Shown one piece after another: positions 29,787-64,000 of a DNA stretch of 64,000 nt. Source of the stretch: Gossypium raimondii. Its lineage: Eukaryota; Streptophyta; Magnoliopsida; Malvales; Malvaceae. Within the stretch, counting starts at the first letter, position 1; the number at the start of each line of letters is the position of its first letter. The position numbers were made by a program, and so were the translations under genes. Under the pieces are notes generated by a model that was not told the origin of the DNA, did not search any database, and saw only the letters and a program-made list of their open reading frames with translations. The stretch spans positions 992,001-1,056,000 of the forward strand of contig NC_068569.1 in the NCBI RefSeq assembly GCF_025698545.1, given 5' to 3'.

Positions 29787-31612
29787 TCAATCCAGCTTTA
29801 CCGAAGAGAATAAATAATCCACAAACCAGAAAGATGAAAGGAATCCGACTGTGCCTGTCGCAAACATGATTGCTAGAACCATGAAGAGAGAATACCCCAA
29901 GTAGAGAGTGGAGAACACAGGTCCACTCAAACTCTTAAGATCAAATACGAGATAGTTTATGGAGTACAAGAAGATGTAGATTGCAACTGAACCGGAGCAA
30001 AGAAAGATTTCCACCACCATTTCCAGTCCTCCACACAGAGATGCATGCAAGTTCCAGCACCAAGAACTAACAACCGGGATGGGTAATTCTGAACTGGAAT
30101 TTCCCGAGGGATCTGGTTGGTTCGAACAGGGTATTCGATATGTGGTGCCTTAGCCCCAAAGTATCCACCAATTAGGTGAGTGGAACTGAGATGCAGAACC
30201 AAAGCAGAAGTAGAATAACAAAGAGAGAAAACGGAATAGCTCCTGTGCTGTGACTTCCCCGCAACAGGAAATTTAAAGTGGTCAGTATCAAAAAGGCAAT
30301 GCCAGGGAAGAAACACGCAGCCTTCCAAGCGACGGAAGCCCATCCCCTGTGATCGCCACAGCCAATTGTTCTCCAAAGACGAACTGAAACATAACCAGCT
30401 GTAATACCAAGAATAAGGTAGAAAAATAGCATACCTGTAATAAGAGTTCCACGGGATGCTGGTGACATAAACCCAACAGCAGCAAATAATATTGTCACAA
30501 CTGCCATCCCAAGGATCTGAACTCCATCCCCAACCATAATACACAAGAGAGCAGGATTGGATGGGGCATGGAAAACATCCCCGACAACTAGCTTCCACCC
30601 AGATAACACCTCAGTCATCTGGGCTTGGGCCTCCTTGTCAAGCTCCTCATATCGGGTAAGATCGCGCCTGACAGTCCTTAAGAATATCACAAGTACAATA
30701 CCAGCAAGGAAAGTGATCACCATAAGAGAATTCAAGATTGAGAGAACCAATGGACTTTGGATATGTCCATCTTCAAATAAGCATCCCAACGAGACGACCA
30801 CTTGATATCAATCTCCTCAAAAGCAACCTCATAGGTGAAGACAATTGGCTCACCTTCCTTGATGGGCGTTGATACAGTAGTTGAGTCGCATTAAATCGGA
30901 GATGGGTACTTTTCATACATTTCAAGTTCTTAACCAAGTTACCATTATGCGTGGCACTGCAAGGAACAACCTCAAAACCAACAACCACCTATCCATGCAC
31001 ATCCGATCCCCCATTGCCGATACCGGGCATAACCTCGGCATCCCCGGTCCCCCTCATACGAGCCACATTCGTTTCCTCATACTTATGAACAAGCACCTTA
31101 AATTTCAAATGATTAAACACATAATAGGCGTCCTGTATGTTAACCCCAGCAGGGTATTCTGTCCACCTCAACATAAAACCCTCTTTCTTAGTATATCTTA
31201 TCGCAGTCAAATTGTCGAGAATCAAGTTAACCTGATACATCTCATCATTCCTTTCCTTCAACAACTTAAAATCATCAGCTGATAACTTATTGGATTGACA
31301 CAAGAAGATCTCAGTCTCATTAGTATACATCTTAAACATATACGGTGAGTTCTCAATCCGGTCTCCCATGAGAAGCTCACCAAGATTTTCAGCACCATCC
31401 TTAACACCCTCCTTAGGCTTACAAAAGGGTAAACTGTAATAGCTAAATGACATTTCAGTGTCGATGGAAGTTAAGGAATTCACTTTGACAGACAAATAGC
31501 ATCCAACTACATGTTTGCGAGGGTAACTACCTGGCAGATAAAACCCATATCCAGATTGAAATATCAAACAAATTGCCGATACCCAGGCCGCAAAATTACC
31601 CATTAATTCCAA
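29787..31612 (-). pseudogene. Decayed transmembrane nine superfamily (TMN11/TMN12-like) gene
   Basis: Successive minus-strand frames give most of an endomembrane TM9SF protein. There is an N-terminal signal-like segment with GFYLPGSYPRKHVVG, the lumenal domain (31,612-30,992), then FLRTVRRDLTRYEELDKEAQ and several membrane segments. The C-terminus (GFLSSFWFVDYLFSSVKLD) carries the family's usual cytosolic end. The copy is broken: an in-frame TAG lies at 30,989-30,991, and the frame changes near 30,890, 30,760, 30,180 and 30,005. Near 30,053 the sequence GAGT joins directly to MHLCVEDW, so roughly 60 residues including membrane segments are missing. Plant TMN11/12 genes are largely intronless in my memory, so a retrocopy cannot be told from a duplicated gene. 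Functional protein is very unlikely. Confidence 0.9.
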
Positions 31613-32782
31613 TTTTTTTTATCAGATCAGGAAAACCCCAGATCGAGAAATGAGGTTATCCAATACTTTTCAGTTTTTAAGGTATGTATCTGAGTCTAGT
31701 GGTTGATATTTTTTTTAGTGATGAATATAATATTTTAATTTATTATATAATAACTTGATAAAATTTTAATTGTTAAATTAAAATTAATTATTATATATTT
31801 ATAACACCATATAAAACATCATATAAGTTTAAATCCTAAAATTGTGGCTTATTAGATTAGGTGTAGTTAAATTTATTGTAAAAAAGAAGAAGCAACATAC
31901 ACGTTTTGATGCCAGATATTTTTTTGTGTTATTAGGTAATGCAATAGAAACCATTTAAGAGGAAGTTATATGTGAACTGATTTGGCACCCTTTTCTTCTT
32001 TTTTGACTTCTGTCCACATGGGAAAAGCAAGCACACAAAACAAGAGCAATTTACACAAACCATGCCAAATGTCAGCCTTCAATTACGATTCTAAACTAAA
32101 AATGTATAAAGGTTATTACAGTCATGTGATTGGATTAGATTTCAAGTTTTCAACAATAAAATATTATTAAAAGCAACAGTTATGAATTTTAAAAACATTA
32201 AATATTATAAATTATAAAACTAATCTAAAAACATTTTGAATTCACTAAATGTGTATCTTATATTTTGAAATATACATAACTCGATGATATTTTATACATT
32301 ATATGTACCTTGAAAAGATTACACATGATCACCCCATCATGTGCATGTATAAGAGATTAATTTCCCAAAACTATGGGAGACATCGTACATATAATATGTT
32401 CATGTGTAATTCTCATTCTATGCAATGTATAATTTCATATATCAATATTCCAGTATCTATCTGGTGCAAGAAATAAATAGTATGGACGAACTAGCAAAAG
32501 AAAAGAAAAAAAAGGCATTCGAAATAAATAAACTAGCATATTAGTAAGATTCTAATAGAATTGTATATGTAACTACTTAATTAGATTACTGAAAACAATG
32601 TCAAACTGGTAATAGGTGCAGGAAATATATAATTCAAATGAAAAACAAAATACAAGCCATTAAGTGACTTGAATAAAGAGAAGCAATGACCATAATCTGG
32701 TTGAATGTAAGTCCCTGTTATATCCTTGAGCTGTGGAGACGCTTTGCCACTGCAATTGAAAAATTAAAAGGTGTTGGACTGA
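31613..32782. other. AT-rich spacer between two pseudogenes
   Basis: This is AT-rich DNA with no terminal repeats I can define. The 62-codon frame at 31,982 has no recognised relative. I see nothing else in it. Confidence 0.5.
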
Positions 32783-39197: not shown

Positions 39198-40971
39198 GCT
39201 GCATACGTCGTGTTTATGTTCCTCGATCGAGATCAAGTTTTCTCGAAAACCATTGGCCACTTTTGCTTGGGAAAGAAGTAAGGCAGGTTAAACCTGCAAT
39301 GACCACTTATTGTAAATTAAGAAAAAAATGAAAAGAACCCTTAGTAGAAACTCCATGTTTCGCTGTTGACCTGTTCATGGTAGTGGGAATTTGAGCTTGA
39401 ATCAGTTCTAGTCTGAGTAATCTGGTGATAGTTAATGATATCTGTATAACAACTATGTTGCTTTAAATCCTTAATTTAGAGTAAATATGAGCTTAGTTGG
39501 ATGTTTGCTGTAATTTTTCTGGGCTCATGCTTTTACATCTGCGAACAATAATGGCTTTTTAAGTCATAGGTTTATAATGTAATTTTATCTACTTGTTTAT
39601 ATATAAAACTAGTTTGTACCTGTGAAGTCGTTTATATAATGTAACGATGTTTCCAGCTGCTAAGATTAATGTCTACAATTTGCTGTGAGAAAACACCGTT
39701 TTGATTGACCAAAATTACGAAAGCTTGCTAATAAAAAAGCAATTATTATATGGGAGAGTATTTATGCATTACACGCGTGTAATAATATGATATTTTATTA
39801 TTAAATAAAACAAAAATTGTATAAGATTTATAGTTAAATATTAATAATTTTATTGAAACATAATTAAATAATAAATAATTATAACTAAATGTTAAAATCT
39901 TAGATTGAAACTCATATTTTAAATTTAAAACACTAAACTTTAAATTATTAAATCAAGATTCGATCTGAGAGTTATTAATATTTATTAATATTTAATTGTA
40001 CTTAAATAAAATTATTAATATTTATTTATAAAACATCTATTATTTTTGTTTTATTTAATGAAATCTTATATTATTATTCATTGATGATGCATGAGACTTA
40101 TTCACCGATAGTCCATCAAATATTATTTCTTATTATATATAAGGAATGATATAATTTTTAGTCCTTAAATCTGAATGTACTTTTCTTTTTCACTTTGGCG
40201 CATGGATTTAACAATTAATCCACTTTTATCCTTAAACTTAAAATATATAAAAGTTTGATAATTTAACTAATACGATATAATCTTAAAAGTTCGATTTAAC
40301 CACTTTATTTGAACCGTTATATCCATCAATTTTGATTCATTTTAGTCACATCATTAGAATATTAACATAATTCAAATTAAGGGACAAAAAGTTTCTATTT
40401 GCCAAGTTCAAAGATTGAAGTGAAAATATACAAATATCAAAGTGAACCTAACTGCAAAATTTAAGGACTAAAATTATATTATCCCCATACATTACAATTA
40501 AATTCTTATGCCAGAAGCATTTTAATTTAATTAAACAATAATGAATTATTTAAGAAAATATGAAAACTTATAAAATTAATATAAATGAATGAATTAGCAA
40601 TAGGAAGCAAAAGGAACAACTGAACCCTGTTAGGTTGAAAGTTGACAAAAACAATAATATGATTTTAACAAAATTTCCCGACGAATACAAGTTGCACATA
40701 AACACAAACTTCAATCAGACGGAAACGTCTAATGTCGACACGATCAAGCAAATATGATTTCTATATATGTAAAAAGAAAAAGAAAATGAAAACATAGTTC
40801 CCTTCCTTTCCTTGTGCTGTGTACATTCATGCCAAGCAGCAGCACATTTACGAACACCCTATTATTCCTCCTACCACTGCCATGCAAAATGCAAAGGAAA
40901 CAAGAGATGCCAACAATAACCAGATTGTCCAAAATCATTTTGAAATTTGAGGGTTGAGTTTTCTGCTTCGT
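39198..40971. other. Convergent 3' region of KNOX and Raf-like kinase genes
   Basis: The two flanking genes converge here. The KNOX 3' UTR probably occupies the first 400-500 bases. AT-rich DNA and the MITE-like element at 40,150-40,480 follow. The kinase 3' UTR probably occupies the last 200-300 bases. No other gene is seen. Confidence 0.55.
40150..40480. mobile_element. MITE-like element with about 20 bp inverted ends
   Basis: The left end ATAATTTTTAGTCCTTAAAT (40,151-40,170) is matched in inverse by ATTTAAGGACTAAAATTATA (40,459-40,478) with one indel or mismatch. The interior of about 290 bases is AT-rich and non-coding, and further in it also shows partly mirrored phrases. Size and structure fit a miniature inverted-repeat DNA transposon. 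The target duplication is not clear (TA-rich flanks), so the superfamily is undecided. Confidence 0.65.
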
Positions 40972-43900
40972 TTATTTTTGTGGGATTTGCCCCTTTGGTT
41001 GAATTTTTGCTGCCATTGACCGTAACTCATTTGCTATCTCGGTGAAACTCGGTCTCTCTGGTAGCTCGGATGACCAGCACCTCTCCATCAATGATCTCCA
41101 TTCTGGGTCACAGCCTTCTGGAACCTGTGGTCGTAGTGTATTACTTACGATACCACCTGAAATGAATTCATTTCCATGCTCAGAAGCTCAAAATGATAAG
41201 GTTCAAATAATCGAATTCACAATTACATTTATAAATAATGAAATTACCAATAATAGCCCCGTAATGCAAGTCTGCATATGGTTCCTCTCCAGTGAGAAGC
41301 TCCCACATAACAATACCGAATGAGAAGACATCAACCTATATTAGAGGGAATAACAATGATTATATACGACATAAAATGGTAGAGGGCACTAAACTATGAA
41401 GAATGTGCAAATTACAAACCTTCTCCGAGACAAGACTGCTACTGCCGTTCAGAAGCTCTGGTGCCATCCATGGAAGGGTTCCACGGACACCACCTGAGAT
41501 AAGGGTTTGACATTTCACCTTAGATAGGCCCAAATCTCCAACCTGGTACCAAAAAAACAGTTGTGAATGAAACTGAAATATCATTAAAACCAATAAGCAA
41601 ATCGAAGAGAACTTTTAGGTATTAAGCAAAGAGAAACAATCTATGACAGTAACCTATTAAAGTGTGGTGTGTCATGCAATTACCCATTAGTCAGCATCAG
41701 CCTGAGCTAGCTACTGTTCTCAACAGTTGATCAAACAGACAAATAATATACCACAAAACATAATTTTAGTTTAAGACAGTCAAGGTCTGCAACTTGAGAT
41801 TAAATGGGATGTGCATATAAGTACTCTTTGCACGATTGAAGGTTAATAATTCCATAATAATAACTTTAAATGTCACTTCCTTATTCATATTATCAGAAAT
41901 TACTCTTAAAGAGCTCAGGAATACCAAACATTCCCTGCAAAAACCTCAAGACAATTATGCCAACAAAAAGTACTCAAAGAAAGCATACTTGTCCAATTAA
42001 TATCCAATGTGAATCTATAGAAATGACAATTTCATCTTAGGATGTTTGGAATAATTTGCCACCGAAGAGCTGGCACCAGAATGGATTGCAAGCAAAACTC
42101 AGGCCTGAGCACTAACCTTGCATATTGGACGGTGAGGATCTCGAAGATTGACAAGTAAGTTGTCACTCTTCAAATCAAAGTGCACTATATTCTTTCCATG
42201 CAGATACTCCATTCCAAAGGCAACATCCATGGCAATCAAAAGTCGCTTACGCTTATCAAGATTCCTGGCAATAGCAAGTCATCCAATATTATTTATAACC
42301 AGAAAAATTATAGGAAAGGTTATACAGTATAGCAAACAAAACAAAAACTTTTAGTACTTCTCATTCTTCTGTAAAGCAGTTCTTAAGGAACCATTAACCA
42401 TATATTCTGTCACTGTTGCCACAGAGCCACCAGGACCATCGAGAACAACACCATAGAATGCCACAACATTGGGATGATGCAAGTCAGCAAGCTTAATTGC
42501 CTCATTCCAGAAATCATCAATCTAGTCAAATGAATTCACCACAGTACAAGCTATTAGCAAGTGAAATTACAAAGTGGAACTAATATGGATAAATAGGAAA
42601 TTGCAAAGAGAAAATAAAGAGCCAAACCATGCGCTCTTGTTCAGAAGGTTTCCCTGCAAAACATCTATCATTGATCCGTTTGATTGCTACATCAGTACCT
42701 CGCCACTTCCCATGATAAACAGTACCGAAGGTGCCAGAACCTAGTTCTCGCAGCTCTTCAAGGTCAATGTTTTTTATAATCTGAAAATGTATATAATTAA
42801 ATTCATGAGCGAAAGGAGTTAACAAAAAAACAAACATCACATGAAAGCAATGATTCAACCTGCAAGCAACCGATGCCATCTGAAACTCGAAAGCCAAAAT
42901 TTGTTCTGTCTGGTTGTTTGGTCTTGATTTCCTGAGTTAAGAAAAAAAAAACAAGATGTTCAATGAATATATCTGCAGAAGGCAGCCGCAATTTTTTTTA
43001 GAGAAGGAAATGGGGAAAGGAGGGGGGGGGGGGTGGGGATGGTGAGGACAATGGGCATACAGATAGAGAATGAAGAGATGCACACCTCAAATTTAGCTTT
43101 ATGTTGCATTTCAATGTTTCTAGTTGAACCATCTATCTCTTGATTGCCCTCAAAACCAGATGCATCAGTTGCTGCTGGTATGTCAGGAGTGGAAGGGGTA
43201 GATGACTGGAAAACAGAAGCAGCTACTCCCTCAGCAACAGCTTGTAGTTCTTTCTTGATGAGTTCCTCAGCTGAGCCATTTGCAGTGAAGGCAACAAGAA
43301 GAAACATTTAGTCCATGCATAAAGCGATAAATGCCAATGTTTGTTGCAAACAGAAATCAAATACCTCACCTTTTGCGGACTGTTTTTGGTCTGAAATGAA
43401 ATCCTTGTTTAAATGGTTTAATGGCTGGTAAACATCATCTTCCAATTGGGCTTTAGATTCCCCAATAATCACTGCCTGGTTCTCTCCAAAAGGGTCTCTG
43501 GTAGGTAATCCTTCTCTCTGTGTTTGAATTTTGTTAGGTCTAGGAGGAGGAAATTGAGCATCTTGCCGTAAATTCCAAGGATCTTGATTGCTAAAGAGTG
43601 AATCTGAGGAATCCAAGACATCACCACCTCTATTAGATGGTGAAAAGGAAGATCGGGTATTAGCATTCAAAGGAGCAGCTTCAGTGCCATTTAGTACAAT
43701 CTTCTGCTGAGTCCATGAAACGTCATCCAATTTATGTGCCGATTGAAGACCAGAAAATGGAGGGTTCCCATATTGAACTTCAAGGGAATCCAAGTTTTGA
43801 GCTCCAACTTTGGGTTGTGAATGTGTCACTACATTATCCAAAATAACTATCTCACTGGAGTCTATTGGTTTGTTAAAGATATTATCCAAAGGCACCTCTC

Positions 43901-46463
43901 TCCCTGCTATTTGTGGAGATCTCTCATCCAAGGCATCTTTTCTGGTTTTGTAAACAGGTGAATTACCCTGCTCATTGCTTATCCGAAGAGCATCCATCAT
44001 CCCATTAATTGGGATCAGACGATTAGGGTCTACAATATCCATTTTGGAGACAGCAGGAATATTGCCATGATATTCTCTGGAGGCTTCAGCCACTTGCTGT
44101 TCAGAAGCTTGAATGCCAATTGCCCCAGGATGTGGAACATCCTGTTTAAGCTGGTATTGAGTCGGCAAAACATACTGTGATTGTAATTCACCTGCCATAC
44201 CCATTAAACCCTGACTTGCTGGAATTCTAGGATGATCGGAATTATCAGTTCTACATTCATTTTGTGCATCAAGACCTTGAGAGAATCCAACTGCCTCTGA
44301 ATGAAGTCCTCCAACTTGATGATCAACGTGACCAAGCTGTCGAAACCCAGCTCCTTGTTCAGCAATGCCATCCCCTAATGCTCCAGATACCACAACCCTG
44401 TTTACTGGTGAAATTTTCATACCATCTTCTGGACGCAGACTATGATAAGTTGAATTCGTATTAACCAGAAGTGTTCCACTGCTATTTCTTGTATCCTTTA
44501 CCAAAGGATCAGAATGTGCATGAGGCAATGCCTTCTGACACATACAGCAGTCTTCAAGCCTTGAGATCTTCTCAGGAGTAGTTGCTTGGTGCTGAGGCAA
44601 GGATCCATCTGACAAGAGAACATGCTCAGTTTGTGGAATACAATGCCAGGCATAACCTCCTCCAACCATTGCGGATGGAATCTGGGCTTGATAAACATTC
44701 TGGTTCCGTTCGACAGGAAGCTGAACTATCTTTGTACCAAAAGCACTTTCACCAGGATGACTCTCCAATGGAATTTGTTTGGGTTGCAACAGTGGCTGAA
44801 CCACTGCTGGTCTAATACCAGCATGGGAAGCGGAGGGAGTCATTGTCATGTGCAAAGCAGGAATGAACTGATGAGCGGTAGCATTGTCACAAAAATGCTG
44901 TTGGCTGAATACAGAATCAGTATTGCCCACCAACTGGGGACTTGAGTAACCCATTTGAGGTGCAAGATGCACATAATCAGAACGGTTCATAACATCATGG
45001 CGAGGATCAATATATGCAGATGCATAGTGTAGCGGTGAATCATATCTCACTTGCTGCGGTGCCGAAGTGAGGGGCATCGACCTCTCTAACTCAACCTCAG
45101 GTTGAGAAGACAATGTTTGTGGAGGAGCAGATTTAACCACTGGAATTCCTAAATGAACAGCAGAAGCATCTGGATAAGCAGCAACAGGATTAGGATCCGG
45201 AGCCATCATTTTTGGACCAGTATCATGAGAAGTAGCTGAATTCCCTCCGGGTGACAAGATGTTTGACGGTGGAGGCCCCCCAACATCAACCTGACCAGCA
45301 CCAATGCTATCAACAGCCTCAGTCCCACTAACATCAGAATTCCGTGTTGAAGCAAGACTTGCCATGCTCTCCTTCCGTGTGAAGCCACAAGAAGCTCCTT
45401 CCACAATTCCATTCACTGCCTCAACATATTTCTGCCCATTGTCATTTAAATCCCCAAATTGAACCAAACCAGAAGGATCGAGCTCCGAAGCCGAAAACAA
45501 AAATACCCTTAATTTAGCTGAACCATCTGAAGACCTTTCAACCACTTTGTCATACTCATCCATCATATTATCTAGATCATCCAAGGAAGAAATGGACACC
45601 AATGCATCAAGATCCTCATCAGGAAGCTGGTACTTAATAACCACAGGTTGCCCATAAGCATCCACCATTTTTTGCACAAATTCATTAAAACTCACATCTC
45701 TCCGAAGACTAATAATCCTTGTCTGCCCCCCAACATATCGCAACACCCCATCACTAGGTCTAGGCAATATCTTTCCCCCAAAACTACACAAAATCTTAAC
45801 CTTTTTTCCTGACACCGAATCACCCCCGCCCTCATCACTCACCTGATCAGCCCCACTGCCATTGCTTCTAAGTCCTAAATTTGGTTTATAAGTAAACCCA
45901 CCTGACAATTCATTATTCAACTGATCAATCTCATTACCACTACCCCTGTTTCCAATATTTGAACTCTGTCCAAAACCTGTTGACGCAATATCATTACTCG
46001 CCTGATCACTCCCATTCCCACAATTTCTATTGCCCAAACTAGGACTAAAACCTTGCCCAGCTACCACATCATTACTGACCTGATCCACAGCATTACCAAC
46101 TACCATATTGCTCAAATTGGGATTATAACTAAACCCAACAACCGGGTTTATACTTGGACGCCCCACTGGCACAGGCACATGCATAGGCATGGGCATGGGA
46201 GGCCTCCATGCAGGGGCACCCGGTGCCAGGGGCACTGCATTTGCATACCCTAAACCTACAAAACCAGCATTAGCCATAGTTGCTGGATAAAAGCCAGGCA
46301 TGGTACCAGGACTTCCAGGCTCCCGAGATGGGTTGGGAAAGAACCCTTCAATATTTCTACCACTGACATTACTAGTAGCTGCAATGCGGGGCTCTTCAGT
46401 TACAGTTCTAGCTACATTCAATGGTCTTAGATCTTTTGGAATTGCGCTGTGATCAAATGCCAT
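40972..46463 (-). CDS. PB1-domain Raf-like MAPKK kinase (group B4, RAF35-like)
   Basis: I read nine exons: 46,463-43,370, 43,270-43,086, 42,931-42,860, 42,780-42,628, 42,521-42,358, 42,264-42,117, 41,542-41,420, 41,335-41,248 and 41,156-40,972. Phases fit, giving 1,403 residues. B4 Raf-like kinases act in osmotic-stress signalling upstream of SnRK2 (family knowledge). A Pro/Gly/Asn-rich N-terminus is followed by a PB1 domain at about 220-325 ([20 protein letters not shown]). A long disordered middle comes next, then the kinase domain from about 1,123. This has the Gly loop [15 protein letters not shown] (Lys1151), HFDLKSDN in place of HRDLKxxN, and GDLGLSK in place of [14 protein letters not shown] follows. 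DLG and the [13 protein letters not shown] phrase point to the RAF35/RAF42 branch (At5g57610 type). A 5' UTR intron (about 46,711-46,472) is likely. It is intact. Confidence 0.93.
43022..43033. repeat. Run of 12 G in a kinase intron
   Basis: A plus-strand poly-G run lies in the intron between exons 2 and 3 of the Raf-like kinase gene, close to exon 2. On the transcript it is a C-run. Its length is likely to vary or to be miscalled. Confidence 0.85.
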
Positions 46464-46721
46464 AATCTAGAACACAGGATTCAGCTAAATGGGATATAAG
46501 CTTAGATTAGTGCAAATCAAGTGCGGAAGAGATAAACGTAGGGTTTTGGTTTCTGGGTTTTGTTTATTTCCTTAAAAACATACTAGAATTCACATAAAAT
46601 CTCTGAGAAACAGAAATAAAACCTCTTTTACATAAAAGGGTATTTTCTAAAAGCAAAAAACAGAGCTAAAAAAGAAGAAGAAAATATTAAAAAAATGAAG
46701 ACTAATAAGTACCAGATTCAA

Positions 46722-52081: not shown

Positions 52082-52410
52082 ATGTATCTTATTTTATTTA
52101 AATGTAATAAAAATATTTTTTTTAGTTTAAATAGTAGATGTGGACAATCGGAATCGCATATTAATTTATATAATTTTATTTTATGGTTTGACATTAAATA
52201 AATGTTGCATGTGGATGGCTTGGAACCATTTTAAATAACTGGAAACCGACAAAATATATGGAATAAAAGCTTATTAGTTCAAACTAGAAAGCCAAACTTG
52301 AAAATAAAATTTGTTCAAACTCAATTTATTTACGGCCATATTCGAAAACTTGATTTAAACTCTCAGATAAGGAGTTATGGCTCTTATTTATTTGAATACT
52401 GTTAAAGCAT

Positions 52411-54975
52411 TCAAGCAACTGCTTCAGCAGCAGTGGAGACCTTCTGGAGGACAAATATAGGATCTCCCACTTTAACCAGCTTTGCCTTCCCTTCAGTCAA
52501 ACTTTCCTTGCAAACCATGTTCTGCCCGAAATAGATCTGCAATTCATCAGAACGTACTCAAAACGGATCGTTTGCGGGTGAGAGGGCATTACAGCAAAAA
52601 AAATGTTCCGAATTTTCATCTTAGTGGTCTTACCTCTCCTTGTTGTTTCTTGTCCGGTCGCAAGACCTTACCGGACCTGTATTTCATAAGAGTTTCATTC
52701 GGCTCTGGACCAGCAATTGCGGTGTCTTGATTGATTGTAGGCACCTGAATAATGCACCATCATCTTTTTAAACATTAACATGCTTAAGCATATGATATAT
52801 AGTTATTAATATCGTAAGATACTCTATATGTATAGTTCAATACGATTCGATTCACAATCAAAATCACTAGGTATCTATATAGAGAACTGGTTTTTAGCAT
52901 TGAATACCTTGAAATCCATTGCAATTTACAATATTCTTAAGATAACAGTACTTCTCGTAATATAAGCAGAAAATGCAGAAAGGGTAGCTTTTATACCTTA
53001 CAGCGGGAGCATAGTCTCACGCCTTGAAATGAAAATTGGCTTATTTTAATCTCAGTCCATAGGTCTTCGGAGAACGGTTCACAGCCGTCAACAAGGATGC
53101 TATAATGAGCACAAAAAATTATGTAATAAAGTTGTAAATAATACAGAAAAAGAGTAAAGCAGAGGTGATTAAACTTAAACAAATGTTTTCCATTGGAAAT
53201 AACATGAGAGAATATTGAAATTTAGAGGATTAACTGGATCCTGATGAAAGGACATGCTAAATAAAAACCAAAAGACATGGTATGAGCCTGAGAAAGGGGC
53301 GAAAAAAGTACTTGGGTCTGAAACGGTTCATGGGTACAGGCTCCTTCAGAAGCTTGTTCAGTTCGTCCAAAGATCCCTGCAAGAATTTGTACTTATAATA
53401 TCAAGTTTAAGCTTTGTTAATTTATATTGATGTCATCATCATCATCATCATCATCATCAGTTATGAAAAAAAAAACCATTGTTTCCAAAACTAACCTGAG
53501 ATACTAACATGAAAGGGAACATGTCAGAAAACATTATGGAATACCCTTGAGCATACACAGGATTCACAGGCCTAGTTTCTGATGCTGCATTTATTAAATA
53601 ATGTTGTAACCAAATTGTTAGCCATATAAATTGGAGACTTAAAAACTATCTTAATATGCAAAGCTATCACAACATGGCTGTAGAATTTATATAGTTAATT
53701 GAAATCAAACCAACCTGCATTAAAACGAACCATCCTACTGGGTTTCCCGAGATAATTTGTAAACCATTTTGAAGCCTCATCACCCTCATCTAATGCAGAG
53801 CCGGACCACTCCCAAACTGAAACACCATCAGACACTTTTGGTGGTTTGCAAAGAGAAATCTTGAGTAAATCCATTCCGGGTGCTTTTATTTCTGCGAATG
53901 AAAGCATATAATGGTCACGACTCATGAAAAATAAAAGGAAATAGGAAATCACAATTTGAATGCTTTAGACAATTTGCCTGCATAAAACAAATAACTCATA
54001 CTAAGATTTCTACTATTAGAGATTTGATAGTTTGTCTCATACAAATAATTTTGCCATGTAAAAACACACTATTCTGTTTAATATGAGCATTATATAATGC
54101 AATATCTGCAGTAACTAAGTTGTCTTAAAGATTAATGAGGTACAGATAATGATGAGTTGGTTTACCCAAATAGGAGGTCTTGGTAGGTTCCCAGCCCTCT
54201 GAAAAGGCCTCAGCTGGCAGGTTCACCTCAACTAGAGCAAGCTTTGGTTCAACCCTTTGAGTATATGCCCTGCCTCTCTGATTCACAACAAGCCATTGCC
54301 GATCCCATCGAAACCCTGTACATGCATCAACAGAGGAACATAAGAAATAAATCAGCCATGCTTGCAAGTTAGCCATGGAGAATAAATTGAACAAATTGAC
54401 AGATGGTTGAGGCAACTGGATACGCCAAATCAAGCTAACTACACTGTTTAAGAAAATCAAGAATAATTCCCAAAATTACATAAAAAAAGTGATCCAATAT
54501 AACAAGCACTGTAGCTATCACTTAATCATAGTTATTGTTTCTAATGTTATTTGGGTTAAGCTAATGAACCAGTGATAAGACAGAAAACTATGACTGGGAG
54601 TGAGGTTAAAAATTTTGGGAATAGCACCAAAAAAAAAAAGCAATAAAAAATAAAAATGAAAACCAAAATTTCCTTGTAAGTATTAAAGCTGGAGTTGCAG
54701 AGAAATACATTAAGACAGTGTTAGCAAATGAAGTGCAGGTGAAAACACCATAATATAAGAACAACAAGGCTAATAATTGATAAATATAAAGCGCAGAAAA
54801 AAACTCACAGCCGGGACCTTGAAGAGATGGAAAAAAAAGGAGTACCAGTAGGAGTGAGGGGTGCATGTGGAACAGAAATTCCACGGCATGATTTTACGGG
54901 ATAGATAAAGATTGATGATATCTTAGCATCAGCAACAGCAGCAGCAGCAGCAGATGATGCATCAGTCTTCTCCAT
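52411..54975 (-). CDS. Mitochondrial amidoxime-reducing-component-like MOSC protein, copy A
   Basis: I read eight exons: 54,975-54,846, 54,315-54,166, 53,891-53,715, 53,584-53,496, 53,376-53,312, 53,099-52,997, 52,744-52,634 and 52,536-52,411. Phases fit, giving 316 residues. It is a molybdenum-cofactor enzyme of the mARC family, which reduces N-hydroxylated compounds with cytochrome b5 partners (family knowledge). An alanine run follows the start, then the MOSC N-terminal barrel (IFIYPVKSCRGISV, FRWDRQWLVVN) and the MOSC domain (NRFRPNILVDGCEPFSEDLW). GVRLCSRCKVPTI contains the conserved cysteine expected to hold the cofactor (about Cys237). It matches Arabidopsis At5g44720. The start is the ATG of MEKTDASS; the frame is open upstream but has no in-frame ATG. 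It is intact and lies in tandem with copy B. Confidence 0.93.
53434..53459. repeat. ATC/CAT microsatellite in an mARC intron (copy A)
   Basis: About eight to nine CAT units lie in the intron between exons 4 and 5. The same repeat sits at 59,928-59,953 in copy B at similar length, so it predates the duplication. Confidence 0.9.
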
Positions 54976-55789
54976 GCCTCTTTCTTCTTTCGGACAAAGA
55001 GACAATCTTGAGTTTCCAAGCAAAAACAGGTAGTCTGTATGTTTAAGAAGTCTTCTTAAAAACCACTGACTTTGAACCACATGAATTCATTTCCTTTACA
55101 TGGAAACTTCCAAACTGAATTTGGATTTTTGCACAATGGGATCAGAACGGTGGACCGCCCTCTATACAAAGTGGCCCTGCCTCCAGCCCACATCCTTTTC
55201 TAACACACGTTACTATTTTCTTTTTCCTTTTTCGGTTACAATTTCCAAGAGGGCAATCCAATTGTAACCTCCATTTTATTTTAAAATATGCTTTTACCTC
55301 TTTCAGATTTATTCATTCTTTTTTATTTTTAAAATTTTAATTTTAAAATTTATTTATTAAATTTATTGATGTGATATTTTAACATAAAACAAATAATTAG
55401 TGGTTATATAATAAAAATACCGTTATAAACTTGAATTTAACCAAAGCATTTTAATTGTATTCACAATTGTAATTAGGTTTTAAATCTAAGAAATAGAAAA
55501 TTTAAATTCCAAATGTAAATATTTTAATCTCACTAAAATTAAGGTTAATTAATACTTCAATACAAATAAAAAAGGTTAATTTTGTCCTACCAAACATTTT
55601 TACTTTTCAAGAAAGCAAGTTTTCAGGAAAAAAATCCCATTACTTGTGGGAAATAACTCAGTTACATTCGAAAGAAAATCAACTAATTTTTGTTAAATTT
55701 ATTGAAAAATGATAACATTCCATCGTATCAAACATCCTATAAGAGTTCAATAGTAAACTGTCTAAAATCCTATCGAGTTAAAAACTAAT
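54976..55789. other. mARC copy A promoter and spacer to the PTAC14 relic
   Basis: The first 450 bases are the promoter side of mARC copy A and are shared with copy B. At about 55,422 homology ends because copy B is interrupted by an LTR. The remainder (55,423-55,789) is AT-rich and leads into the 3' end of the PTAC14 relic. No gene is seen. Confidence 0.55.
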
Positions 55790-58560
55790 CTAAAACAATA
55801 TACGCTCTTGATAGATGTCCAATGCCTCGATAACCTTCTCGATGAATAGTTTCCGGTGCAATCTGTACCTGAATATGTAAAAAGGTAAGAGAGACTTCAA
55901 CTCGGACTGTAATTAAGAATTAAAACCTTAATGCATGAGAGGAAAAGGTATGTTATGTCAGAATCACATACTTGATTGCTGTTTCAAGTGTCCTCCTTGC
56001 TTCTGGCATAGATGGAAAGATGGAAAACTGAAGGAGTAGAAAACTAGAAGGATAGAAAATATAATTTTTCTTTCATAATCTCTTCATTTTCTCTCCTCTT
56101 ATTTTTCCAATTTGGAAGGATTGGTTTTTATGCGATAGAAAATGGTCATCCCTCCCATTTTCTTTTCTCTCACTTTTCTTTCAAACCAAGCACACTCAAA
56201 ATTTATTTTCCTTCCACTTTTCCACTCCATCCTCCATCCCTCCACTTTTGCACCTAACCAAGCACACCCTAAAAGTTGAAGCTAATTACCACAGATGATG
56301 AGAATCCATATCGTTGCATGAGCATCTGATTTTGCTGTCCATTCATGTAATTGATGGTCATCTGTTAACATTATGGAATTGTAGATACATATCCCATAAT
56401 GTAAATAAAAAACACTTAGGATCTAACATGGTTGATGGCTTTAAAAGGCAAACAGCAAAGACAACACAAAGCAGGCTAAACTTTATCACAAACTAAATGC
56501 TCCAATAGCTACAAAGAGACCAAAAAGACTACAAATAAACGATGGCTGGACCGCCCCTTGATGTTGAAAATTCACTTGAACAACATTAGAATTTAAAGAG
56601 AATATGGAATAACAATACCTCCTCTCCTTTTCTAATCCTCTGTCCAGCGTTTATCATCACCTCAACCATGCGATCCTTAAAACGCCAATGGAGAAAACAG
56701 TTTGGCTGAAATGAATGATTTAGCATGTCTGCGCTGACAAATGGATACACATCAAAAAGCATATTAAAATATTAGATAAGTAAGAGAAATAATAACTTAA
56801 AGGAAATATGATGGCAGTCAATTTGTAGATAAGGCAGGGAGGTATTAGTGATGCCAAAACAGGCCAAAGCTTTGGTCGAAAAAGACAATAAATGAAGGAG
56901 AAACAGTTGAAAGGAATGGTCTACAAGAAAAACAAAAAATCTTGTCAAGCCCTGCATTACTTTTAACTTTTTGACCAGCCATCATAGACAAGAAGGCATA
57001 GAAATGAAAAATAGAGGAGCCCCATGCAGCAAGATCACCAGACCAGCATAGGGAATTAGCATATTTGCATCTTGAACTAGTGCACCGATCCTAACTTGCA
57101 TGTTAATGCATCGTGACTGTGCAATGCTAACAGCCCAAATGAATCTCTCAGGATCACGAGCAAGGCGCTTTATTTTCAGAGGAACACCGGAATGCTGAGC
57201 GAGGTTAAGCACACAAACAAGTCATATTAGAGTGAGCAAGAACTTCTTTGAAGAAACGAGAGGTAAAATGTTTATTGTCATAATGATAGATGGGTTGCTT
57301 ATACCCAGTTCTTTTCCCAAAATTCTAAGGCTCTTAATTGTTGATTTTTCATAGTTGAAACAAGATCAGGATCCTGCAGCTGTGAGAGGTCGTCCTGCAA
57401 GGATTGAGCAAGCTGTGAGTACAACAAGTTGCTTCCCACATAGTTACTCTTAGAATTATGCTAAAATCCCAATCCTTTGCCATTTAACAACCATAACCAA
57501 TGCTTTAATGCTATCATTAAGATATGTCACTCCCACCATTAATTCATCAAAGACAAAAACTGTAATTTAGCAAAACATAGAAGGGAACTCGAAATAAAGT
57601 AAAAAGCAAGAAAATACACACACCTCAGTAGCAAGAAGCAAGCTAGTGCACTCATCAGCACTAGGTAAGAAGTCTCCATATAGTTGCCAAAAGTTATCCT
57701 CCTTATCAAATGCATACAAGAGAAGGCATGCCAATCTCAGATCCCAATCTGTCAGCCAAGAAAGACGCCATGAATTACATTGAAGAACAGCGCAATTAGT
57801 GTTATAGTACAAACCAAATAGTGTGCTAGTGAATTCACCAAATTTGAACAATAAATGCAGAAAACTTGAAATGATAATTTAAGTCTTTCATATAAAGGAA
57901 AATTCGAATTACCTCAGGATTGGTTGAGTTTATGATATCAAATATGGGATGACCTAGTGGCACTATATCCGGGAAGAACATCCATGGCAACTTCTGCCTT
58001 ATTGTCAACATCAATTCCAAAGGTATTTCCATAATTACCTGTTCAGTCAAGTATTGAAAGCATAGTTACCAACACATACACACAGATATCATAGCAAGAG
58101 AATATATGGTAGAAAAGGGTTACAGTGAGAATTTAGAAGCAAATGACAAAAGTGAAACAGACTCTAGCACAACGAAGAGGTTCAACATCTTTGGAGGCAT
58201 AGACTCCAAAACCATCAGGACCTTCCTTAAACTCAATTCCATAAGCTCTCATACTTCGAACATAACCTATCTTGTAGAAATCAGGGTCCGCAGGCTCCAA
58301 CTATAAAGGAAAACAAAAGCAACTGAATGATTTTAAAAACCCAAAATGGAAAAAAAAGTAATAGGAAGAGTGAATTGATAAGCCATGAGCATATACCTGA
58401 GAAGGAGATTCTTGAACTGGGGTAGGCTGAAAGAGTGGAAACGAAGGAGTTTCAATCTCAAACAATACTTGGTCGCTGGTGCTGGTGACCACCCATGACT
58501 ATGAAAATGAGTACGACGAGATTCTCTTTCTGGACAAGCATAGGTGAAGCACCCACTGAC
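55790..58560 (-). pseudogene. PTAC14: Truncated PTAC14 (SET-domain plastid transcription-associated protein) copy
   Basis: Minus-strand exons match Arabidopsis PTAC14: 58,560-58,397 (partial), 58,300-58,163, 58,038-57,913, 57,752-57,624, 57,394-57,305, 57,194-57,044, 56,728-56,619, 56,361-56,290, a scrap near 56,010-55,972 and the last exon 55,868-55,790 ending DIYQERILF. Intact PTAC14 is part of the plastid-encoded RNA polymerase complex (established). Recognisable parts include DPDFYKIGYVRSMRAYG, PWMFFPDIVPLGHPIFDI and DMLNHSFQPNCFLHW (SET core). Decay is clear: the start and most of the transit peptide are missing at the duplication junction (58,560/58,561). The acceptor before exon 4 reads TG where AG is needed for frame. 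The large exon from VNPWD to about LLDS is gone, replaced by an insert at 56,011-56,270. Two donors are GTCTG. It is a non-functional partial copy. Confidence 0.9.
56011..56270. mobile_element. Transposon-like insert replacing a PTAC14 exon
   Basis: This pyrimidine-rich block of about 260 bases lies between PTAC14 exon 8 and the scrap of the exon ending in TAIK. Its right end reads CTAACCAAGCACACCC, and an internal AAACCAAGCACACTC repeats the phrase. On the minus strand this is GGGTGTGCTTGGTT, a terminus style seen in plant MITEs (from memory). The expected matching left end is not clear, so the element may be incomplete. Confidence 0.4.
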
Positions 58561-61500
58561 ATGTATCTTATTTTATTTAAATGTAATAAAAATATATTTT
58601 TTTTAATTTTAAATAGTAGATGTGGACAATCGGAATCGCATATTAATTTATATAATTTTATTTTATGGTTTGACATTAAATATATGTTGCATGTGGATGG
58701 CCTTTACCCGGCTAGGAACCATTTTAAATAACTGGAAACCGACAAAATATATGGAATAAAAGCTTATTAGTTCAAACTAGAAAGCCAAACTTGAAAATAA
58801 AATTTGTTCAAACTCAATTTATTTACGGCCATATTCAAAAACTTGATTTAAAGTCTCAGATAAGGAGTTATGGCTCTTATTTATTTGAATACTGTTAAAA
58901 GCATTCAAGCAACTGCTTCAGCAGCAGTGGAGACTTTCTGGAGGACAAATATAGGATCTCCCACTTTAACCAGCTTTGCCTTCCCTTCAGTCAAACTTTC
59001 CTTGCAAACCATGTTCTGCCCAAAATAGATCTGCAATATCATCAGAACGTATTCAAAACGGATCATTTGCGGGTGAGAGGGCATTACAGCAAAAAAATGT
59101 TCCGAATTTTCATCTTAGTGGTCTTACCTTTCCTTGTTGTTTCTTGTCCGGTCGCAAGACCTTATCCGACCTGTATTTCATAAGAGTTTCATTCGGCTCT
59201 GGACCAGCAATTGCGGTTTCTTGATTGATTGTAGGCACCTGAATAATGCACCATCATCTTTTTAAACATTAACATGCTTAGGCATATGATATATAGCTAT
59301 TAATATCGTAAGATACTCTATATGTATAGTTTCAATACGATTCGATTCACAATCAAAATCACTAGGTATCTATATAGAGAACTGGTTTTTAGCATTGAAT
59401 ACCTTGAAATCCATTGCAATTTACAATATTCTTAAGATAACAGTACTTCTCGTAACATAAGCAGAAAATGCAGAAAGGGTAGCTTTTACACCTTACAGCG
59501 GGAGCATAGTCTCACACCTTGAAATGAAAATTGGCTTATTTTAATCTCAGTCCATAGGTCTTCAGAGAACGGTTCACAGCCGTCAACAAGGATGCTATAA
59601 TGAGCACGAAAAATTATGTAATAAAGTTGTAAATAATACAGAAAAAGAGTAAAGCAGAGGTGATTAAACTTGAACAAATGTTTTCCATTGGAAATAACAT
59701 GAGAGAATATTGAAATTTAGAGGATTAACTGGATCCTGATGAAAGGACATGCTAAATAAAAACCAAGAGACATGGTATGAGCCTGAGAAAGGGGCGAAAA
59801 AAGTACTTGGGTCTGAAACGGTTCATGGGTACAGGCTCCTTCAGAAGCTTGTTCAGTTCGTCCAAAGATCCCTGCAAGCATTTGTACTTATAACATCAAG
59901 TTTGAGCTTTGTTAATTTATATTGATATCATCATCATCATCATCATCATCATCAGTTATGAAAATAAAAAACATTGTTTCCAAAACTAACCTGAGATGCT
60001 AACATGAAAGGGAACATGTCAGAAAACATTATGGAATACCCTTGAGCATACACAGGATCCACAGGCCTAGTTTCTGATGCTGCATTTATTAAATAATGTT
60101 GTAACCAAATTGTTAGCCATATAAATTGGAGACTTAAAAACTATCTTAATATGCAAAGCTATCACAACATGGCTGTAGCATTTATATAGTTAATTGAAAT
60201 CAAACCAACCTGCATTAAAACGAACCATCCTACTGGGTTTCCCGAGATAATTTGTAAACCATTTTGAAGCCTCATCACCCTCATCTAATGCAGAGCCGGA
60301 CCACTCCCAAACTGAAACACCATCAGACACTTTTGGTGGTTTGCAAAGAGAAATCTTGAGTAAATCCATTCCGGGTGCTTTTATTTCTGCGAATGAAAGC
60401 ATATAATGGTCACGACTCATGAAAAATAAAAGGAAATAGGAAATCACAATTTGAATGCTTTAGACAATTTGCCTGCATAAAACAAATAACTCAAACTAAG
60501 ATTTCTGCTATTAGAGATTTGATAGTTTGTCTCATACAAATAATTTTGCCATGTAAAAACACACTATTCTGTTTAATATGAGCATTATATAATGCAATAT
60601 CTGCAGTAACTAAGTTGTCTTAAAGATTAATGAGGTACAGATAATGATGAGTTGGTTTACCCAAATAGGAGGTCTTGGTAGGTTCCCAGCCCTCTGAAAA
60701 GGCCTCAGCTGGCAGGTTCACCTCAACTAGAGCAAGCTTTGGTTCAACCCTTTGAGTATATGCCCTGCCTCTCTGATTCACAACAAGCCATTGCCGATCC
60801 CATCGAAACCCTGTACATGCATCAACAGAGGAACATAAGAAATAAATCAGCCATGCTTGCAAGTTAGCCATGGAGAATAAATTGAACAAATTGACAGATG
60901 GTTGAGGCAACTGGATACGCCAAATCAAGCTAACTAAACTGTTTAAGAAAATCAAGAATAATTCCCAAAATTACATAAAAAAAAGTGATCCAATATAACA
61001 AGCACTGTAGCTATCACTTAATCATAGTTATTGTTTCTAATGTTATTTGGGTTAAGCTAATGAACCAGTGACAAGACAGAAAACTATGACTGGGAGTGAG
61101 GTTAAAAATTTTGGGAATAGCACCAAAAAAAAAGCAATAAAAAATAAAAATGAAAACCAAAATTTCCTTGTAAGTATTAAAGCTGGAGTTGCAGAGAAAT
61201 ACATTAAGACAGTGTTAGCAAATGAAGTGCAGGTGAAAACACCATAATATAAGAACAACAAGGCTAATAATTGATAAATATAAAGCGCAGAAAAAAACTC
61301 ACAGCCGGGACCTTGAAGAGATGGAAAAAAAAGGAGTACCAGTAGGAGTGAGGGGTGCATGTGGAACAGAAATTCCACGGCATGATTTTACGGGATAGAT
61401 AAAGATTGATGATATCTTAGCATCAGCAACAGCAGCAGCAGCAGATGATGCATCAGTCTTCTCCATGCCTCTTTCTTCTTTCGGACAAAGAGATAATCTT

Positions 61501-61938
61501 GAGTTTCCAAGCAAAGACAGGTAGTCTGTATGTTTAAGAAGTCGTCTTCTTAAAAACCGCTGTCTTTGAACTCGATTCCCTATCAAACCACATGAATTTC
61601 ATTTCTTTTACATGGAAACTTCCAAACTGAATTTGGATTTTTGCACAATGGGATCAGAACGGTGGACCGCCCTCTATACAAAGTGGCCCTGCCTCCAGGC
61701 CCACACCCTTTTCTAACATACGTTACTATTTTCTTTTTCCTTTTTCGGTTACAATTTCCAAGAGGGCAATCCAATTGTAACCCCCATTTTATTTTAAAAT
61801 ATGCTTTTACCTCTTTCAGATTTATTCATTCTTTTTTATTTTTAAAATTTTAATTTTATTTTAAAATTTATTTATTAAATTTATTGATGTGATATTTTAA
61901 AATAAAATAAATATTTAGTGGTTATATAATAAAAAATA
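58561..61938. repeat. Tandem duplication, second copy of the shared segment
   Basis: This is the second copy of the segment at 52,082-55,422. The left junction is sharp: ATGTATCTTATTTT follows PTAC14-derived sequence directly. At the right, homology breaks at the LTR that starts at 61,939, so the true end of this unit may lie beyond that element, outside the window. Small differences include one alanine codon fewer and a few replaced residues in the gene. Confidence 0.95.
58905..61466 (-). CDS. Mitochondrial amidoxime-reducing-component-like MOSC protein, copy B
   Basis: I read eight exons with the structure of copy A: 61,466-61,340, 60,810-60,661, 60,386-60,210, 60,079-59,991, 59,871-59,807, 59,594-59,492, 59,238-59,128 and 59,030-58,905. 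All phases fit, giving 315 residues. All MOSC features of copy A are kept, including the CSRCKVPTI cysteine. Visible changes are one alanine fewer in the N-terminal run, Asp to Glu after TINQ, RSGKV to RSDKV, and GE to GK at the end of exon 7. Both copies keep open frames and splice sites, so both could be active. The upstream region is shared for about 470 bases, so the promoters may be similar except where the LTR sits 5' of this copy. Confidence 0.92.
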
Positions 61939-62234
61939 TGTTACGGGATAGAATAATAGCAGGAAAAAAAATTAGCTAAAATTAATTTAGTTACTGAAAA
62001 TAGGGAGTTTTAGATATTAGTTAAACGGTGAGTTTTAGTTGTTAATTGGATGGGGCGTTTTGGTGAGTATTAGTTACTGTTTGTTATGTTTTCTTTTGCT
62101 TGAAGTATGCAAGTGCTGCATGGGAAGGAAGTTGTCGAATTACAGAAGAAATTTGTTATCTGTTTTCTCCTCTCTTTCTTCCTTTTCTCCCTTTTCTTTC
62201 TTCCAAATTCTCTGCTCGATTTCAGTTCTTCTCA
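61939..62234 (+). mobile_element. 5' LTR, about 296 bp
   Basis: It starts TGTTACGGGATAG and ends TTCTCA, giving the standard TG...CA ends, two bases before the primer-binding site. The five bases before it are AAATA. In the uninterrupted copy A the matching position reads AAATACCG, which fits insertion at this point and a five-base target duplication. The second LTR would lie outside the window. Confidence 0.7.
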
Positions 62235-62236
62235 AA

Positions 62237-62247
62237 GGTATCAGAGC
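62237..62247 (+). other. Primer-binding site for initiator-methionine tRNA
   Basis: GGTATCAGAGC matches the core of the usual plant PBS TGGTATCAGAGC, complementary to the 3' end of initiator tRNA-Met. It lies two bases after the LTR end, as expected. Confidence 0.85.
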
Positions 62248-62424
62248 TTTCATGATCCCTTTTTGATGGCCGGCGGTGGTGTTTCGACAAGGTTGCAAAA
62301 AGAGGTGAGCACGATGCAGCAGGAAATCTCCAAAATCTAAGAGGAATTCGCGCATCTGGAGGCCAAGCTGGACTCCCAATTACAGGAGTTCAAAACGGCG
62401 GTTCGAGGTGATTTACAATCGCTG

Positions 62425-62915
62425 TTGGTTCAGTATTTCGGGCCACCACCAACTGGTTCATCGGTAACTGCTGCAGCTGATAAGGGTAAGGGGGTTTTGG
62501 GAGCTCCTCCTGGGTTTTTACCTAAAACCACCGATTTACTGCCAGGACAGACGGAACCCTTTGTTCCGGATGGAGGTAGTGTGCATGTACGGGATCCTTC
62601 CTATGTGGCGGGAGTTTCTACTAGAACCAGTCGATTAGAGTGTCCTAAGTTCGATGGTAATGATTTTCGGGGATGGTGGACCAAATTGGAACAGTATTTT
62701 GAAGCGGAAGGCATACCTGAAGTGAGTAAGGTTCGCATGGTGATGTTGAACTTAGAAGGCAGAGCATTGGAATGGCATCATTTCTATTCACAGAGGCAAG
62801 GTGGTTTGCAAATGTTGTTATGGCCGGCGTACATTAAGAGCCTCCAAGATCGTTTTGGATGTGGGCCATTCAGGGATCCGATGAGGGAGCTGGTCAACTT
62901 GAAACAGCAATGCTC
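62425..62915 (+). mobile_element. Gag segment of the retroelement
   Basis: The frame gives LECPKFDGNDFRGWWTKLEQ followed by RMVMLNLEGRALEWHHFY and DPMRELVNLKQ. This is the core pattern of the Ty3/gypsy Retrotrans_gag family (LxxPxFxGxDxxGWxxxxExYF, then LxGxAxxW). An N-terminal coiled-coil-like region is encoded upstream. The usual zinc knuckle of gag is not reached, because bZIP-derived sequence takes over at about 62,915 in the same reading frame. Confidence 0.8.
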
Positions 62916-63465
62916 CATTTCTAGTTTAAAATCCAACAATGTTGGTGTTGTTGCTAATACCTTGCACTATGGCGCCTTGAACACGAGCATTGGTGCAACA
63001 GCGATAGTTTCAAGTGGAATTGGGTGTTTAGATACAGGGCGATTCATGTACCAGAAGGGCGCAACATTGGGTGCCTTGTTGGAAAATGGCCAATTTGAGA
63101 ACTGGGCTGACTCTGGCCTTGCCGATAATAGCCAATAGACTGACACTTCGACTGATGTTGACACTGACCATAAAAACCAGCTTCATGGAGTTCAACATGG
63201 AGCTGTAATGGTGAATATGGTCCAAGTCAAAAAGTAGTGATCAAAAGACTCTTCGCAGGCTTGCTCAGAATCGAAAAGCTGCAAGGAAGAGTAGATTGAG
63301 GACAAAAGCCTATGTCCAGCAGCTTGAGAGTAGTCGACTCAGGCTTACAGAACTATAGCAAGAGCTTCAAAGGGCACAGCAGCAGGGTATTTTTATAGCA
63401 TCTGGACTTTCTGGGGACCATGGCCATACAGTTGCGGGAAATGCTGCTTTGGCATTTGACATGGA
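62916..63465 (+). pseudogene. Captured TGA-type bZIP transcription factor segment, intron-free
   Basis: The sequence encodes parts of a class D (TGA) bZIP factor. First comes an N-terminal region with GCLDTGRFMYQKGAT and FENWADSGLADNSQ, then TDTSTDVDTDHKNQ. The basic region and leucine zipper follow (LRRLAQNREAARKSRL, YVQQLESSRLRL), ending at ALAFDMEY. Plant TGA genes have several introns across this interval, yet none interrupts it here, so it derives from spliced RNA. The first part continues the gag reading frame. The segment is partial and is not a working gene. Confidence 0.85.
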
Positions 63466-64000
63466 ATATGAAGACATACATGCAGTCAATATGAGGGAAA
63501 TGATATTCATAATGATATATGTCTCCTTTGACATGATTCTTGGTGCCTATCTCATTAGTAACATGACAGCATTAATCGTAAAAGGATCCAAGACAGAGAA
63601 GTTCAGAGATAAAATGGCAGATGTTATTAAGTATATGAACAGAAATAAACTTGAAAGGGATCTCCGTAATCAGATCAAAGGCCACTTGCGTTTACAGTAC
63701 GAAAGCACATACACTGAGGCTGCCGTTCTTCAGGATATTCCCATCTCTATTAGAGCTAAGATTTCCCAATCTATATATCTGCCATACATTGAAAATGCAT
63801 CTCTTTTCAAGGAATGCTCTTCAGCGTTTATTAATCAGATTATTATTAGACTCCATGAAGAATTTTTTCTCCCAGGAGAAGTAATAATGGAACAGGGAAA
63901 TGTTGTGGATCAACTCTATTTTGTTTGTCATGGTGTGTTGGAGGGAAAAGAATCCAATCTCCGAGTTAGGCAACTGGAATCAGACATCTCATTTCACATC
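63466..64000 (+). pseudogene. Captured outward-rectifying K+ channel (SKOR/GORK-like) segment, intron-free
   Basis: Starting within a few bases of the bZIP end, the plus strand encodes DIHAVNMREMIFIMIYVSFD, then GSKTEKFRDKMADVIKYMNR, IKGHLRLQYESTYTEAAVLQ and RLHEEFFLPGEVIMEQGNVV. These are the region around the last membrane helix, the C-linker and the cyclic-nucleotide-binding-like domain of SKOR/GORK Shaker channels. The pore is not present. The host genes have many introns; none is seen here. Only parts of the channel are represented, and the segment runs off the window. Confidence 0.85.

Follow-up and report, generated by a model that had tools for sequence, protein, structure and literature searches.

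A probable gene-transducing LTR retrotransposon in Gossypium raimondii joined to fragments of a TGA bZIP and a SKOR-type potassium channel gene

How did a long terminal repeat, a piece of gag and parts of two unrelated host genes come to lie end to end, and in one orientation, in the genome of Gossypium raimondii? The locus fills the last 2.06 kb of the 64,000-nucleotide stretch of contig NC_068569.1 analyzed here (the window), in which an LTR, a primer binding site (PBS), a truncated gag, a fragment of a TGA bZIP gene and a fragment of a SKOR-type channel gene follow one another without a gap, all on the plus strand. The initial annotation of the window had described an LTR, PBS and gag followed directly by two host-gene segments in the same orientation, and this layout was borne out by the sequence together with profile and structure matches. 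The features used below, with positions counted from the first base of the window, are:

52082-55418, no strand assigned: duplication copy 1, a direct repeat of about 3.3 kb, with the empty target site
58561-61938, no strand assigned: duplication copy 2, delimited by alignment to copy 1, with the element at its visible right end
61934-61938, plus strand: AAATA, presumed 5-bp target-site duplication (left copy); the tandem copies cease to be homologous here
61939-62234, plus strand: 5' LTR (TG...CA), 296 bp; left edge taken from the empty site, right edge from the CA followed by the PBS
62236-62247, plus strand: PBS, AGGTATCAGAGC, agreeing at 11/12 bases with the presumed tRNA-iMet complement TGGTATCAGAGC
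62266-62913, plus strand: gag, represented by its 5' part; start ATG at 62266, stopped in frame by a TAA at 62338-62340, truncated by join 1
62905-62928, plus strand: join 1 between gag and TGA, given as a range and not as an exact base; one frame runs from gag-like ..LVNLKQQ into TGA-like LKSNNVGVV..
62914-63469, plus strand: TGA bZIP cDNA fragment; N-terminal part, basic region and start of the zipper, ending at FDMEY
63467-63470, plus strand: join 2, TGA to SKOR, in frame; TATG is compatible with both parents (..EY-A.. and Y-G-D..)
63467-64000, plus strand: SKOR-type outward K+ channel cDNA fragment, open to the window edge
63938-63946, plus strand: join 3, inside SKOR, in frame; ..HGVLE then GKESN..

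The 5' LTR starts with TGTTACGGGATA at 61939 and closes with ..TTCTCA at 62234. A second copy was not found within the 64-kb window at a blastn E value of 0.01. A plain scan of the plus strand of the LTR found no TATAA or CAAT motif, an absence that we regard as neutral, since it would neither show nor exclude transcription. The PBS, scored against a motif that we take to be the tRNA-iMet primer-site complement, is the sole 11/12 match on both strands of the 64 kb, with 10/12 reached at five other sites. Direct repeats of at least 14 bases within 61000-64000 comprise seven families; two of these (62261/62815 and 62385/63187) were considered as borders of the captured pieces and rejected, as they lie inside the element, flank no piece and look like chance.

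Two Pfam families match the last third of the gag part, both below their cut-offs: Ty3_capsid, the best match (E 0.0039, 17.1 bits with the cut-off at 29.1), and Retrotrans_gag (E 0.084, 13.5 bits with the cut-off at 24.1). By this likeness the element is probably of Ty3 type, and the visible stretch is probably the 5' part of a non-autonomous LTR retrotransposon. No pol family was found in the six stretches scanned with Pfam, none of which includes 63139-63238. The frame running from gag into TGA had no match among solved structures at E values up to 1, and a fold predicted for the gag piece from its sequence alone was of no help (mean pLDDT 45.6). No gag relative was recovered in any of nine candidate stretches from a collection of viral contigs, which is silent on plant copies.

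Gag and the first part of the bZIP had been thought to share a single long open frame of 237 codons. The sequence instead gives 265 codons from stop to stop (62341-63138), a length reached in 0/2000 single-base shuffles, in which the earliest ATG is codon 133. The frame that begins at the gag ATG is stopped after 24 codons by the in-frame TAA at codon 25. We therefore reject an intact gag-bZIP fusion protein, given the stop at codon 25 and no further ATG until codon 133.

The left border of the element can be read from the tandem duplication beside it. The two copies differ by 48 substitutions in 3331 aligned bases and by 15 gap events (K2P 1.46%), and the homology of copy 2 to copy 1 is lost exactly at the start of the LTR. 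At this point copy 1 reads ATAATAAAAATA followed by CCGTTATAAAC, and copy 2 reads ATAATAAAAAATA followed by TGTTACGGG. The empty site in copy 1 thus fixes the left edge of the LTR at 61939 and supports AAATA as the target duplication. The sequence past the empty site in copy 1, CCGTTATAAACTTGAATTTAACC, further predicts a right flank of AAATA followed by CCGTTATAAACTTG, beyond the window. The target duplication proposed in the initial annotation accordingly stands on its left flank, and the right-hand AAATA falls outside the window. With the element present at copy 2 and the site empty in copy 1, the insertion is later than the duplication, unless the duplication itself ends at that base. Divergence between the copies is uneven: eleven bins, each of about 300 bases, range from 0.3% to 3.0%, and a final bin of 76 bases reaches 5.3%, so that gene conversion between the copies is possible.

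On its minus strand the duplication seems to hold the 5' portion of a MOSC/mARC-like gene, a putative assignment made from reading the translation. Between the two copies, at 55800-58500, are minus-strand stretches of coding appearance, which we take to resemble a SET-domain (Rubisco LSMT-like) methyltransferase. If the duplication unit extends to 58560, a duplicate of these stretches would be expected to the right of the element.

The first of the two host-gene pieces is identified as a TGA factor by its bZIP region. Positions 63239-63355 match Pfam bZIP_1 (E 2e-7) and bZIP_2 (E 3.9e-7), both above their cut-offs, and the closest of the six solved relatives listed for this region are TGA7 (E 3.2e-10) and TGA3 (E 2.2e-9). 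Upstream, 62914-63135 is presumably the N-terminal stretch of a TGA protein of the long class II type; scanned alone with Pfam it gave no match, and TGA motif strings found no match in the full-text literature. The fragment is interrupted by a TAG at 63136, a frame change at about 63205-63239 and a second TAG at 63356, and is without most of the zipper and the remainder of the TGA protein.

The second piece runs from the selectivity filter of the channel through the C-linker and into the nucleotide-binding domain, followed by 17-18 codons from past an internal gap. It matches solved SKOR at E 7.4e-93 (8.5e-87 for SKOR residues 300-458 of 8wtz alone) and GORK at E 4.3e-77, and is identical to SKOR at 132/159 residues against 119/159 for GORK. 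The 177-codon frame in this stretch was reached in 0/2000 single-base shuffles. Conserved channel sites are altered in the piece, one of them the glycine of the selectivity filter. Compared with the viral contigs, the SKOR piece matched one locus (L001) among three candidate stretches, with 60% identity over residues 44-68 (E 3e-4).

Only two junctions had been recognized in the initial annotation, and a third is present inside the SKOR piece at 63938-63946. It emerges from two collinear matches, to residues 298-458 and 525-549 of 8wtz, between which 73 codons (219 nt) of the channel are absent, with Leu-Glu on both sides. The full SKOR and GORK chains are continuous through this gap.

Parent genes close to the element were considered as the source of the two pieces and rejected, as no TGA or SKOR homologue occurs elsewhere in the window (best other tblastn match E 0.18). 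Several other features of the window may be recorded here. Three open frames at 29960-31618 on the minus strand match Pfam EMP70 (best E 3e-62) and indicate an endomembrane protein 70 gene, seemingly split over frames. The longest frame in the window, of 1052 codons, lies at 43311-46466 on the minus strand and contains a PB1 domain (E 1.5e-16). Four partly overlapping open frames of 153-208 codons at 25507-27520 on the plus strand have no Pfam match at E 0.001. An inverted repeat at 39781-40078, with 104-nt arms that are 78% complementary and 90 nt apart, could be a small DNA transposon, and a 60-nt repeat at 1679-1867 is present in two copies that are 85% alike at a spacing of 129 nt.

Whether the two pieces derive from spliced RNA bears directly on how they were acquired, and intron positions provide the evidence. 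For the TGA piece we take the grapevine bZIP group with intron pattern b to be the TGA group, from the numbers of its Arabidopsis orthologues. Two phase-0 introns, at -25 and -5, are reported in all group D genes of six legumes (PMC4676100), TGA factors are assigned to group D (PMC7796262), and the same introns are given for the corresponding grapevine group, one member excepted (PMC4023599). In the present TGA piece the two sites fall at codons 63248 (-25) and 63308 (-5), and both are uninterrupted. Provided that the parent gene conforms to the published rule, the absence of both group D introns indicates a spliced RNA as the source of the TGA piece.

In the SKOR piece 159 codons run without interruption. 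Peach SKOR and GORK are described with 10 and 12 introns (PMC8926527) and willow SKOR with 16 (PMC7932800); if these were evenly spread, about two would be expected in a stretch of 159 codons, a figure that is supportive rather than proof. An origin of the SKOR piece from spliced RNA is nevertheless likely. The earlier description of both segments as intron-free therefore holds at the published positions for TGA and is likely, from the unbroken codons, for SKOR.

All three joins keep the reading frame, the call at join 1 depending on what we take to be the underlying TGA sequence, and the frame change sits within the TGA piece, not at a join. Three in-frame joins would be expected in about 1 of 27 cases if joins were random with respect to frame. 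They may be a matter of chance, or may be a sign that the chimera started as one open frame. A few bases could be common to both templates at joins 2 and 3: at the former TATG, on our assumption that TGA continues past the join as ..EY-A.., and at the latter the Leu-Glu codons. By the protein codes, about four or more bases could be shared at two of the three joins, and the view that the junctions show little or no homology is probably wrong for these two.

The explanation put forward in the initial annotation, in which an LTR retrotransposon captured pieces of two host mRNAs by template switching of reverse transcriptase, is also the one best supported by our analysis, and we give it a probability of about 0.77. 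Sense pieces of two genes directly adjoin, the TGA piece is truncated at both ends, no poly(A) is seen at the joins, and the TGA introns are absent. Under template switching, RNA of the element would have been packaged in a virus-like particle along with TGA and SKOR transcripts. Reverse transcriptase would then have left its gag/pol template and copied an internal stretch of each mRNA, switching at short matches, and would later have gone back to the element, giving a chimera with its own LTRs, the 3' copy included. Integrase would finally have inserted the chimera at AAATA, beside copy 2 of the tandemly duplicated gene. A comparable route is described for LTR-mediated capture, in which host mRNA is packaged accidentally and templates are switched, perhaps more than once, at microsimilarities (PMC5408686), and abnormal template switching has also been described for capture (PMC13317346).

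Three other histories could place the same pieces side by side. L1-like retrocopies are known in dicots (PMC4838847), and processed TGA and SKOR pseudogenes or fragments might have entered a resident LTR element one after the other. We consider such independent insertions improbable: the longest A run within 40 bases of any join is 4 (3 at join 2), and the 41- and 31-base stretches at the two ends of the TGA piece (62895-62935 and 63455-63485) have no string of 5-8 bases in common. With no long A run and no shared string, neither a poly(A) tail nor a target duplication of its own is seen for the TGA piece. The common orientation of the pieces, the direct abutment of TGA on SKOR and the preservation of frame at all three joins also argue against separate events. 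Capture or rearrangement at the DNA level beside the LTR, whether by end joining or by a Pack-type or Helitron mechanism, would, in its end-joining form, also fit the few bases that may be shared at joins 2 and 3. It is set against the absence of both group D introns from the TGA piece, the 159 unbroken SKOR codons and an empty-site edge that coincides with the start of the LTR, and we hold it to be just as improbable as independent insertion.

The window ends inside the element, and an assembly join that attached unrelated sequence at the LTR or at one of the joins has to be weighed for this reason. Similarity to the sister duplicate breaks off precisely at the TG of the LTR, directly after AAATA, and orientation and reading frame are kept across the joins, which makes an assembly error very improbable, the least probable of these alternatives.

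Join 3 calls for a separate judgment. There is a little under an even chance that this join alone is not a jump of reverse transcriptase, and that the captured SKOR mRNA had skipped an exon or that a later deletion removed 219 nt. The length of the gap is divisible by three and the GAG/GGA at the join fits an exon end, as exon skipping would have it; a deletion between two Leu-Glu codon pairs is equally consistent with the join. We see no decisive point against either process. Exon borders of SKOR were not found in the accessible portions of published SKOR gene descriptions, which give intron numbers at most.

Following capture by template switching, the reading frames appear to have decayed. 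The captured frames are very probably dead and the chimera probably non-functional, judging from the three stops, the frame change, a zipper and a TGA protein that are largely missing beyond the start of the zipper, and the altered conserved channel sites. When this decay took place can be approached through the neighboring duplication. Change per copy since the duplication was set at 0.7-0.9%, from half of the 1.46% divergence and half of 12/649, the latter being the count in the three bins next to the element. At this rate 2.1-2.6 amino-acid changes would be expected per 125 codons and 0.5-0.7 stops per 541 codons; 13 and 3 were seen. The 13 are residues common to SKOR and GORK that are changed here, out of 125, and 6/13 correspond to G-to-A changes when the nearest codon is taken.

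The excess of changes and stops over expectation hints at decay before the present insertion, and so at movement after capture. The timing may be read as a hint only, as true orthologues also vary at the 125 residues, so that the baseline is not fixed, and neither count stands out once change per site is put at 3% (P 0.37 for stops, 0.09 for residues). Methylated elements may also mutate faster, and gene conversion may have erased differences between the duplicates. It is possible that the chimera, once formed, went on to transpose as a small non-autonomous family. A fuller version, in which the chimera began as one open gag-TGA-SKOR frame and then spread, with the frame change and the stops arising later inside the pieces, is rather unlikely on present evidence. 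In that version a gag-led fusion of transcription-factor and channel fragments may at one time have been translated from the LTR.

An LTR element with pieces of two different mRNAs is, to our knowledge, a less usual outcome of capture. LTR-mediated retroposition through template switching at microsimilarities was reportedly set out by Tan et al. in 2016 (as described in PMC5408686), and the mechanism proposed there is the same as that proposed for the present element. We know of no previous combination of gag, a TGA bZIP and a SKOR channel, and a limited literature search found no retrotransposon with a captured bZIP, potassium channel and gag chimera in print; the capture process is well known in plants and the combination of genes is apparently new.

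The element is probably a gene-transducing LTR element of the Bs1 type. Like Bs1 of maize, an LTR element with segments of several unrelated host genes, it appears to work by taking up host sequence. The Bs1 segments are reported to come from three host genes, encoding an H+-ATPase, a xylan endohydrolase and a beta-1,3-glucanase (PMC13317346). The host genes are other ones here, and Bs1 is reported as a transcribed and translated chimeric gene (PMC13317346), whereas the present chimera contains stops and a frame change and is known from its 5' part alone. In rice and sorghum, 672 and 1,343 LTR-captured genes are reported, those of rice being largely pseudogenes (PMC3726574). The genes counted there are annotated ones within full-length elements (PMC3726574); in the present case fragments of two genes are joined to gag and to one another, and what is visible of the element is its 5' part. 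Chimeric retropseudogenes of Magnaporthe likewise contain several transcripts that template switching has fused into one DNA copy (PMC2104539). There the machinery is that of a LINE, in contrast to the LTR, PBS and TG edge found here.

The locus offers a readable case in which pieces of two unrelated host transcripts are joined to an LTR element, and the same window supplies both an empty site and a neighbor that can be dated. It adds an example with three in-frame joins to a process known mainly through surveys and Bs1. The understanding of capture itself is left unchanged; what the locus makes testable is the order of capture, decay and insertion. If the chimera did begin as one open frame and spread, it could feed small RNAs against its parent genes.
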